Source: a virus. Taken from it: a stretch of 25,278 bases of DNA. A model generated the notes under the pieces. That model did no database searches. It saw only the letters and a program-made list of their open reading frames with translations, and had not been told where the DNA came from. Position numbers and translations under genes: made by a program. Location of the stretch: the IMG/VR virus record IMGVR_UViG_3300048694_000596, positions 1-25,278 of that record; one strand, given 5' to 3'. This document shows positions 4,587 to 17,782 of this stretch, piece after piece (the first letter of the stretch is position 1; each line of letters opens with the position of its first letter).

Positions 4587-4766
4587 TTAGTTACTCAACC
4601 TGTCACCGATGTCCTCCAAGACGTTCAATATCACGTCTGTGCTATCCTCACCGTTCTCCTCTAATTGTTGCATAACGTCTTGCAGTTGTGGTAGAACTGT
4701 GGTGACAACTTCTGGCACCCGAATCATGACTCCATTGCCCAAATTCTTATACTTTAAGGGTCTCAT
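4587..4766 (-). CDS. Small hypothetical protein behind a hairpin leader (59 aa)
   Basis: The frame ATG 4766 to TAA 4587 encodes MRPLKYKNLGNGVMIRVPEV..., with an acidic C-terminal half (LEENGEDSTDVILNVLEDIG). No family is recognised. The ATG is immediately preceded by the 3' arm of a 17-bp perfect hairpin with a late-promoter-like octamer in its loop, which suggests timing control. No Shine-Dalgarno sequence is visible. Confidence 0.65.
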   Translation of the reverse strand: MRPLKYKNLGNGVMIRVPEVVTTVLPQLQDVMQQLEENGEDSTDVILNVLEDIGDRLSN

Positions 4767-4818
4767 AGTTTTGATAGCATAACTGGGGGTATTTATGGGG
4801 GGTTATGCTATCAAAACT
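4767..4818 (-). promoter_or_regulatory. 17-bp perfect hairpin directly before a start codon
   Basis: Arms 4767-4783 and 4802-4818 are perfect reverse complements (17 bp) around an 18-base loop. It lies 14 bases after the stop of the 4833 gene and ends against the ATG at 4766. No T-run follows on either strand, so a terminator is unlikely. Read-through RNA would fold it against the start codon; see the promoter entry at 4790. Confidence 0.85.
4790..4797 (-). promoter_or_regulatory. Candidate late promoter (CATAAATA) inside the hairpin loop
   Basis: The minus strand of the loop reads CATAAATA, one mismatch from TATAAATA. Initiation about six bases further on would begin an RNA near 4784, just before the 3' arm, so late transcripts would lack the 5' arm and could not form the hairpin. 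The same logic is known for T4 genes such as e, soc and I-TevI. Confidence 0.5.
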
Positions 4819-4832
4819 CAAACCCCTTGGTA

Positions 4833-5048
4833 TCACTCACTTACCTCACAGTAGATGTCATAAAGTTCTCGAAGTTTGTCCTCCGAATAGATAACCAACT
4901 GTGCGAGTCCTTCAGGTGTAATTGTGAGGGGATTTTCACCCGCCCACTGTACCAAATCACGCAGGCAGATTGACTCTGCTACCGTGTCACCTTCGAAGAT
5001 CTCTTCAAGTAGGAATTGCGATTCTTCAGTGATGCTCTGAGTGACCAT
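4833..5048 (-). CDS. Small acidic protein (71 aa)
   Basis: A 71-residue, Glu-rich helical protein (MVTQSITEESQFLLEEIFEG...) ending RELYDIYCEVSE. No family is recognised. It is the first gene of a minus-strand unit with a clear sigma70-type promoter 26-54 bases upstream, so early expression is likely. Early transcripts would continue into the hairpin at 4767. Confidence 0.75.
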   Translation of the reverse strand: MVTQSITEESQFLLEEIFEGDTVAESICLRDLVQWAGENPLTITPEGLAQLVIYSEDKLRELYDIYCEVSE

Positions 5049-5073: not shown

Positions 5074-5102
5074 AGTATATATCAGGGGGATTGTATTGTC
5101 AA
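5074..5102 (-). promoter_or_regulatory. Sigma70-type early promoter (leftward)
   Basis: On the minus strand TTGACA (5097-5102), 17 bases, TATACT (5074-5079). The -35 box is exact. It drives the gene at 4833-5048 and lies back-to-back with the rightward promoter at 5150. Confidence 0.85.
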
Positions 5103-5178: not shown

Positions 5179-5346
5179 CGACGGACTTTAATCACAACAA
5201 CCTCAACCATTTTCTAAGTATAATCAACGAAATAAAACACAAACTATTATTTTTTTCCACATTTTCCACAAATAAGTAAAAAATTGTGGAAAACTTAAAA
5301 ATAACACTTTCCTATAAATAAAAGAACAGCAATCTATCATTTAACA
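5179..5346 (+). promoter_or_regulatory. Leader of the homing endonuclease with a 10-bp hairpin
   Basis: No gene lies in this A/T-rich leader. TTTTCCACAA (5262-5271) and TTGTGGAAAA (5284-5293) form a perfect 10-bp inverted repeat with a 12-base loop, preceded by a second TTTTTTCCACA copy. No T-run follows. The structure lies between an early promoter (5150) and a late promoter (5313), so only early transcripts would contain it. Confidence 0.6.
5313..5320 (+). promoter_or_regulatory. T4-type late promoter (TATAAATA) for the homing endonuclease
   Basis: Exact TATAAATA on the plus strand, 26 bases before the ATG at 5347 and downstream of the leader hairpin. Dual early/late control is known for the T4 homing endonuclease I-TevI. 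Confidence 0.8.
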
Positions 5347-6165
5347 ATGCGTCAGGGTATCATTTATCTCATTGAAAACAAGACTAACGGAAACAAATAT
5401 GTTGGTCAAACTGTAGTCCCTTTGAATAAACGATGGGCACAACATATTCAAGAAAGTAAGATATATTCAGACCGTCCTTTGTATAAAGCAATCAACAAAT
5501 ATGGACTACAAAATTTTAACATTAAAGTCATAGAAGAGACAACAGAGGATAAACTTAGTGAGAGAGAAATCTACTGGATAAAACACTTTAACTCATACAA
5601 TCATGGATATAATGCTACAACAGGTGGAGAACGTAGTAGCACACTGAGGGAAGATGTAAAGAAAAGAATATCACAATCTATGAGTAATGTTTCTCGTTCT
5701 GATGAATGGAAAACCAACGTAATTAAAGGAGTTAGAGATAAAGTTAAAAAAGGAGAAAAATGGGGATTTTTGTTAGATCAATACCGCGGCAATGGTTCTC
5801 ATCTTAAAATGAAAATACAGGGGACACATATACAAACTGGAGAAGTTTTAGAGTTTGATAGTTTATCAGATGCTTGCAAAGAATTAAACATCAAAAATGG
5901 TAATTTATCCAGAGCTATAAAAGAAGGATGGATGGCAGGTGGTTACAAATGGAAGAAACTTACAGACAAACAATATACTCGTGCTGTGATTGGTGTTGAT
6001 AAAAATACTGGAAAAAAATTGTATGAATGTGAAAGTATTAGGGCAGCACAAAGATTATTTTTATCTTCAGATGTAAAAGGTTCGGGTATAAGAAAATCAC
6101 TCAAAAATCCTGGTCATTATACTTGGAAAGGTTGTCATTGGTATTACTTAGACGAAGTAGAATAA
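5347..6165 (+). CDS. GIY-YIG homing endonuclease with NUMOD repeats (272 aa)
   Basis: N-terminal GIY-YIG nuclease domain (about 4-95): GIIYLI (4-9), KYVGQT (17-22), catalytic Arg29 in LNKRW, catalytic Glu74 in EREIYWI, and Asn89 in GYNATTGG. After a Lys-rich linker come two NUMOD1-like DNA-binding repeats, around 157-204 (FDSLSDACKELNI) and 212-268 (CESIRAAQRLF). All catalytic residues are present, so it looks active. It is the only plus-strand gene, free-standing, AT-richer than its surroundings, and has its own early and late promoters: a selfish insert. No strong Shine-Dalgarno sequence precedes the ATG. No intron was identified. Confidence 0.93.
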   Translation: MRQGIIYLIENKTNGNKYVGQTVVPLNKRWAQHIQESKIYSDRPLYKAINKYGLQNFNIKVIEETTEDKLSEREIYWIKHFNSYNHGYNATTGGERSSTLREDVKKRISQSMSNVSRSDEWKTNVIKGVRDKVKKGEKWGFLLDQYRGNGSHLKMKIQGTHIQTGEVLEFDSLSDACKELNIKNGNLSRAIKEGWMAGGYKWKKLTDKQYTRAVIGVDKNTGKKLYECESIRAAQRLFLSSDVKGSGIRKSLKNPGHYTWKGCHWYYLDEVE

Positions 6166-17064: not shown

Positions 17065-17757
17065 TTACCAAGTCGTATATCTATGCTGAAGTTCAGATTC
17101 TTTCTTCTTGCCAGTTGATTGAAGAACCAAATCCCTAAGTTTTCTTTGTCCTGCCTTAGTGATTCTTGCTCTTTCTGCTCTACTCATACCAACTACAGGT
17201 CTCTTGGGTTGATCTGCAGGTCTGTGATCAACTTGAGGTGCTTTCTTTGTAGTTAGTTTTCTTGCTTGCGCAGAAAGTTCAGATGGTTTTGGTTTTGCTG
17301 CTGCTGGTGCTTCTCCACCACCTTTCTTTGCTGCTGCGCGTGCCTTTGCTGCCTTTATTCTTTCTGCTTTTGCTGCTGCTAATTGTGCCTCTCTTGCAGA
17401 TCCACGTTCTTGTGTTGGTGCCGCAGTTTGAGTTCCTCTTTGCTGCCCAACATCACTACGTGTTTTATACTGAGATGGTTGTCTAGTTTCACCTGCCTTT
17501 GCCTGCTTCATTCTACGCATTTCAGGAGCAGTTTTTTTACGTTCTGGTGCAATTCTACCACCTGCACCAGTTGTTCTAACTGAAGCAGAACGCATTAAAT
17601 CTGCATCGTATGCTTCTTTAGGATAATTTTTAGATGTCACCACATTATATTCTTTCTTTCCAGGTCCAACATCAGCAATTCTATATCCAATAGGTCTTTG
17701 AACATCTACTTTAATTTTCTTTTTTGCTTCCGCAACAAATTGAGAAAACGTTTTCAT
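17065..17757 (-). CDS. Internal head protein with a T4-type capsid-targeting sequence (230 aa)
   Basis: The N-terminus MKTFSQFVAEAKK closely matches the capsid-targeting sequence of T4 internal proteins (MKTYQEFIAEA); the prohead protease would cut after Glu11. The rest is very basic and Ala/Lys/Arg-rich (AEAQLAAAKAERIKAAKARA-like), with no hydrophobic span. It is likely packaged inside the head with the DNA and injected or structural. A late-promoter variant and a good ribosome-binding site (AGAAAGG) precede the ATG, and a terminator insulates it. Content unlike its neighbours supports a structural role. Confidence 0.8.
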   Translation of the reverse strand: MKTFSQFVAEAKKKIKVDVQRPIGYRIADVGPGKKEYNVVTSKNYPKEAYDADLMRSASVRTTGAGGRIAPERKKTAPEMRRMKQAKAGETRQPSQYKTRSDVGQQRGTQTAAPTQERGSAREAQLAAAKAERIKAAKARAAAKKGGGEAPAAAKPKPSELSAQARKLTTKKAPQVDHRPADQPKRPVVGMSRAERARITKAGQRKLRDLVLQSTGKKKESELQHRYTTW

Positions 17758-17774: not shown

Positions 17775-17782
17775 TATTTATT
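17775..17782 (-). promoter_or_regulatory. Late promoter variant (AATAAATA)
   Basis: One mismatch from TATAAATA, ending 17 bases before the ATG at 17757, with AGAAAGG between. It follows a terminator T-run, as at 1186. Confidence 0.62.

Follow-up and report, generated by a model that had tools for sequence, protein, structure and literature searches.

Organization of the locus

The stretch of DNA analyzed here (the window) is a virus record of 25,278 nucleotides, which carries T4-like gp25 and gp6. Its relatives of 222 and 205 kb contain Syn9-like replication genes, gp33, gp45, and psbA, and the 222-kb relative additionally has gp55, head genes, and tail genes; on this gene content, the window belongs to the T4-like cyanophages. 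In the window, as well as in the related genomes G001 and G002, gp25 is encoded on the same strand as the locus, which lies approximately 3.6 kb upstream of it. The locus of the window is composed of the following features:

5097-5102, minus strand: -35 box (TTGACA) of an early sigma-70-like promoter, assigned by sequence and kept in the relatives
5074-5079, minus strand: -10 box (TATACT) of the same promoter, after a 17-nt spacer
4833-5048, minus strand: early gene of 71 aa, located after the early promoter and ahead of the hairpin, with a GAGG-type Shine-Dalgarno sequence
4802-4818, minus strand: 5' arm of the hairpin, AGTTTTGATAGCATAAC, which holds the box TGATAGCA at 4806-4813
4784-4801, minus strand: 18-nt loop, CCCCCATAAATACCCCCA
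4790-4797, minus strand: predicted late promoter in the loop, CATAAATA, with a predicted late start at A4784
4767-4783, minus strand: 3' arm, GTTATGCTATCAAAACT, touching the ATG, which holds the box TGCTATCA at 4772-4779
4587-4766, minus strand: 59-aa gene, whose homologue in relatives is the C-terminal domain of HNH homing endonucleases encoded at the same locus
4731-4733, minus strand: codon 12 (Gly), coupled perfectly to the stem core in 37 stand-alone loci
4725-4727, minus strand: codon 14 (Met), coupled perfectly to the stem core in the same 37 loci

The first-pass annotation had described a perfect 17-bp hairpin next to the ATG at 4766 and an early promoter at 5102, and both are present, the former with arms at exactly 4767-4783 and 4802-4818 around an 18-nt loop, and the latter, by its sequence, as TTGACA (5102-5097), 17 nucleotides, and TATACT (5079-5074). 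A single gene lies between this promoter and the hairpin, an interval with no obvious terminator, and its 71-aa product returned no family match. In the window and its relatives, this early gene (4833-5048 in the window) occurs as two sequence types, which show no evident similarity and begin MVTQSITEE or MSVAYxQAQK, and the promoter spacing is similar for both.

No other perfect close-armed repeat in the window is as long as the inverted repeat at 4767-4818, and base composition predicts approximately 1e-4 perfect repeats of this kind per 25 kb, which means that the hairpin is real and far beyond chance. The leader RNA folds at -29.1 kcal/mol, against -8.5 in shuffled sequences (z = -8.5), and retains only weak structure when the 5' arm is removed. 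The stem of the window continues beyond the ATG, with GGGUUU (4820-4825) pairing with AGACCC of codons 2-3 (4758-4763), and the AUG forms a 3-nt bulge with a helix on either side; this extension is not shared by all the relatives. The 3' arm lacks a Shine-Dalgarno sequence, and it is the AUG region itself that is enclosed or abutted by the stem. Rfam and tRNA scans of the whole window produced no matches.

Conservation in the relatives

The relatives were sought by protein similarity, rather than by the hairpin, which recovered 39, and then 61 viral loci. Once the loci from the protein and pattern searches were combined and reduced to distinct sequences, there were 37 stand-alone genes and eight HNH-fused rows, with two outliers beside these rows, L238 (HNH) and L239 (stand-alone). 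No credible relatives of the hairpin, the 59-aa protein, or the downstream gene were found in cultured phages, and the only match in prokaryote genomes was a chance one, to a cellular enzyme. Searches of the open-licence literature turned up no account of such an arrangement in cyanophages.

The relatives share a common plan, that is, a sigma-70 promoter, one small gene, the hairpin, the late motif in its loop, and the start codon. In each of the 43 loci whose upstream DNA is long enough, a sigma-70-like promoter precedes the ATG by 287-380 nt, at a chance rate of approximately 0.02 per 400 nt. The inverted repeat abuts the start, or ends at most 6 nt away, in every locus with its start on the contig, and the stem abuts the start codon in all the stand-alone loci, while the repeat pairs less well in several of the HNH fusions. 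The motif NTAAATA is exact in the loop of 29 of the 37 stand-alone rows (where it ends 6-8 nt ahead of the 3' arm) and seven of the eight HNH rows.

The pairing of the stem is preserved in 99.3% of the cells in 17 distinct hairpins, with five pairs altered on both sides, counts which describe types rather than frequencies, given that this set was picked to represent variants. The stem covariation is 0.256, in comparison with 0.083 in shuffled data, a value reached in none of 500 shuffles, and slid versions of the alignment reach 0.042 at most. In locus L239, a further pair has changed across both arms, from T-A to C-G. Template-switching mutation at the hairpin could also keep the arms complementary, in the absence of selection.

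A strong hairpin between two genes may also be a transcription terminator or an RNase processing site of the upstream early gene, and this is scarcely credible here, given that the stem, which is A+T-rich, reaches right up to the ATG and the late motif is conserved in the loop. The terminator was rejected, as the stem has no T run in the coding direction and the loop promoter is conserved.

In L061, the 5' arm and the loop are duplicated head to tail, within approximately 85 nt upstream of the ATG, giving three arms at a spacing of approximately 35 bp.

The late promoter in the loop

The earlier description of the loop motif as one mismatch from the late promoter is correct with regard to the T4 consensus, TATAAATA, but not for the published cyanophage late promoter consensus, NATAAATA (PMC2984593), which CATAAATA matches exactly. 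The core ATAAATA is not rare in the window (five observed vs. 5.7 expected), so the weight of the motif rests on its position and conservation. Over the window, G001, and G002, NTAAATA occurs within 75 nt upstream of the start of 17 of 32 structural genes, in contrast with two of 37 replication or metabolic genes, an enrichment from which it can be concluded that the motif is a late promoter in this cyanophage lineage too, beyond T4. In the window, gp25 comes with an ATAAATA of its own, at 1186. A further ATAAATA, at 17775-17781 on the minus strand, precedes a 230-aa ORF (17065-17757) by 18 nt, and this ORF is likely to be a late gene.

The late motif of the window ends 6 nt ahead of the 3' arm. 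In T4, transcription starts at a regular spacing from the late motif, and the application of this rule places the predicted late start of the 59-aa gene at A4784, the base directly ahead of the 3' arm. Given the location of the promoter in the loop, the late RNA should thus begin just before the 3' arm and would lack the 5' arm.

This arrangement recalls the hairpin switch of the T4 genes e, soc, 49, and I-TevI, in which the initiation region is covered by a hairpin in the long transcripts made early, and a late promoter just upstream gives rise to RNA without the 5' arm (PMC3014915, PMC2988022). The locus of the window is similar in its hairpin at the start in the predicted early RNA and in a late promoter placed for RNA lacking the 5' arm, but differs in that the promoter is inside the loop, the stem buries no Shine-Dalgarno sequence, the phage lineage is that of the T4-like cyanophages, and the two arms covary with the protein that the gene encodes. 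The known members of this group sequester the Shine-Dalgarno sequence and/or the AUG (PMC3014915), and its absence from the stem is thus no reason for exclusion. The T4 logic proposed in the first-pass annotation is supported by comparison, as each element that it needs, judged from the sequences (early promoter, hairpin abutting the start, loop with the late motif, and predicted late start adjacent to the 3' arm), is present and kept in the relatives. Unlike in T4 e and I-TevI, the 3' arm has no Shine-Dalgarno sequence to bury.

The 59-aa protein and its HNH relatives

The 59-aa open reading frame at 4587-4766 (minus strand), which had previously been described as unknown, is not wholly so, as it encodes what is, in an HNH homing endonuclease, the C-terminal domain. 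In eight loci (L024, L029, L037, L053, L086, L198, L202, and L238), the homologue forms the C-terminal part of a protein of approximately 140 aa with an HNH-like N-terminal part, and the two fusions scanned, L053 and L029, match the HNH endonuclease family phrog_4234 (E 8e-22). The HNH motif itself is present in the fused relatives and absent from the 59-aa protein of the window. The fused alleles occupy the same locus, with the same kind of hairpin and a shared late promoter, those that were checked have the same upstream gene and early promoter ahead of them, and in three, the loop contains the full T4 consensus. The tree of the shared domain needs seven changes between the fused and stand-alone states, four of which are forced by supported branches, which indicates repeated loss or gain of the nuclease.

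The 59-aa family had no credible match in the Pfam, PHROGs, NCBIfam, or PDB sequence profiles. An AlphaFold2 (AF2) model of the protein (pLDDT 76) has helices at residues 19-38 and 43-58, and a Foldseek comparison with PDB and BFVD returned no match, so that a DNA-binding fold was not confirmed. Residues 12 and 14 and the invariant Arg16 alternate ahead of the first predicted helix. In Arc, the DNA-contacting residues of the strand also alternate, and the modeled coil-helix-helix of a small protein, with residues 12, 14, and Arg16 alternating before the first helix, would resemble the ribbon-helix-helix proteins Arc and MetJ, from which it differs in that the sequence and fold searches (HMM, Foldseek) found no match.

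Coupling of the arms with the protein

The association scan covered positions -80 to +174 of the 37 distinct stand-alone loci. Perfect coupling with the stem class was found only at -45 and -42 (5' arm), -11 and -8 (3' arm), and codons 12 and 14, while the coupling of the loop and flank positions reached 0.54 at best. The stem classes correspond to two types of protein, Gly12/Met14 and Met12/Ile14. In the Gly12/Met14 class, the arm sequence is TGATAGCA, TGCTAGCA, or TGATATCA, all formed by the half-sites TGATA and TGCTA, while in the Met12/Ile14 class it is TGTTAACA, with the half-site TGTTA, and every arm is a near-palindrome of TGNTA half-sites. Loci L006 and L048, for example, have identical loops and nearly identical flanks, and differ in both arm cores and in codons 11-14. 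On a tree based on codons 19-58, there are seven class switches, with the arm and protein traits agreeing in 37 of the 37 rows, and two of the seven switches are forced by well-supported branches, a number so small that a sign test cannot reach significance. Outside these rows, L239 has Lys12, along with a T-to-C change that its two arms share in mirror form. In the HNH fusions L037, L053, and L086, the coupling of protein and arm does not hold, and some of the fusion arms mispair.

The coupling and the near-palindromic structure of the arms suggest that these are probably binding sites of the encoded protein as well, and the simplest reading of the pattern is that the protein reads the arms. 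The pairing of codons 11-14 with the arms in the RNA was rejected as the cause of the coupling, as these duplexes are weak, interrupted, and class-dependent. In the window and in G002 (204 kb), the arm motif is found in the two arms and nowhere else, and it is absent from the HNH-bearing G001; a wider regulon of such sites was rejected on the basis of these three sequences.

The protein may also bind the hairpin in the RNA and repress its own translation from the early transcript, like other T4 translational repressors, given that both of the coupled arms also make up the RNA stem. This is very improbable, as the letters that vary are located in the middle of a long, regular stem, a type of RNA helix in which sequence-specific reading is unusual, and the late RNA would have no stem, so that repression would be limited to the early RNA, before the protein is plentiful.

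A proposed combination of hairpin switch and operator

The coupling might also be no more than inherited linkage, or the co-transfer of short segments, at a locus controlled by the hairpin and late promoter alone. Every element of the T4 logic is conserved, and the HNH fusions have the hairpin plan without the coupling. Even so, this is rather unlikely, given that the loop sits between the coupled positions, yet neither the loop nor the flanks track the class, and identical loops are found with both classes. In addition, each arm is near-palindromic, with cores such as TTAA, ATAT, and CTAG, which pairing alone does not demand, and residue 12 and both arms change together once more in L239. The RNA switch alone does not explain the coupling of the arms with the protein residues, and the initial interpretation of the locus is thus incomplete.

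The arms might, conversely, be only a pair of autorepressor sites flanking the late promoter, with the RNA hairpin a by-product that plays no role in translation. The coupling to residues 12 and 14 and the logic of the half-sites are what such operators would produce, and L052 and L094 lose one RNA pair while the arm gains symmetry, the spacer of L052 is approximately one helical turn (11 bp) longer, and the third arm of L061 lies at a spacing of approximately 35 bp. This second alternative is nevertheless improbable, since the arms are complementary even where the dyad within the arm has been lost (the L038 group and L239), the HNH fusions L029 and L053 keep a long stem with a weak dyad or none, and the stem abuts the start in all the stand-alone loci, with the predicted late start at the 3' arm.

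The maintenance of arm pairing where the dyad has been lost, together with the long stems without a dyad in some HNH fusions, argues for a hairpin role, while the coupling and the dyads argue for a role in DNA binding. Taken together, these arguments favor a late-expression module of two layers, as in I-TevI, which combines a hairpin switch with autorepression at the arms (probability of roughly 0.6), with the operator layer being less certain than the hairpin layer. The early sigma-70-like promoter, with one small gene behind it, would give rise to a read-through RNA with the full hairpin, from which the 59-aa gene would not be translated, and the loop promoter would produce an RNA that begins with the base immediately preceding the 3' arm, lacks the 5' arm, and can be translated. 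The product, apparently the DNA-binding domain of a nuclease-less HNH homing endonuclease, would then bind the two arms as dyad operators flanking the late promoter and repress its own late transcription. The Gly12/Met14 proteins would read TG[AC]TA half-sites, and the Met12/Ile14 proteins, TGTTA. There is an even chance that this single 52-bp element acts in full at two levels, with its arms serving both as DNA operators of their own product and as the RNA hairpin that blocks its start, and with residues and letters having switched together several times.

In the I-TevI gene of T4, control by a hairpin is combined with autorepression by the DNA-binding domain of the protein, through an operator over the late promoter (PMC2988022). 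Both layers are proposed here, and the relatives are also two-domain homing endonucleases, although the nuclease is GIY-YIG in I-TevI and HNH here, the gene of the window comprises the C-terminal domain only, and the hairpin arms and putative operators are one and the same DNA. The mobE gene of phage Aeh1 (reviewed in PMC2988022) is similar in that it encodes an HNH homing endonuclease, lies behind a hairpin, which covers its ribosome binding site, and has a late promoter nearby, but it is found at another locus, in another phage group.

These findings extend the T4 logic of hairpin and late promoter to the T4-like cyanophages, with evidence from covariation, and tie it to a homing-endonuclease lineage often found without its nuclease. 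They also provide a testable case in which one sequence must serve RNA pairing and protein recognition together, and the natural variants (TGATAGCA, TGCTAGCA, TGATATCA, and TGTTAACA), with their matching residues, represent a ready set for specificity swaps. If the reading is correct, the joint switching of arm letters and recognition residues would be a natural specificity code, in homing endonucleases and their nuclease-less forms.

Similar arrangements nearby

The window also contains a GIY-YIG homing endonuclease gene (phrog_314) at 5347-6165 on the plus strand, divergent from the 71-aa gene. A perfect TATAAATA is located at 5314-5320, approximately 26 nt before its ATG, and the arms of an inverted repeat lie further upstream, at 5253-5265 and 5281-5293, forming a hairpin that leaves the start uncovered.

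The placement of a late promoter in the loop of a hairpin recurs, by its sequence, at another HNH-like gene of G001. This gene, of 211 aa, neighbors psbA (158398, minus strand, in L163) and has a perfect 14-bp stem with CTAAATA in its loop. GGAG is buried in the stem, and a T run comes after it, so that a late promoter, a terminator-like stem, and a start-site hairpin are combined in one structure. At 141277 (minus strand, also in L163), the start of gp26 in G001 has ATAAATA between 9-bp arms, and gene 26 of T4 has been listed as hairpin-controlled (PMC2988022).
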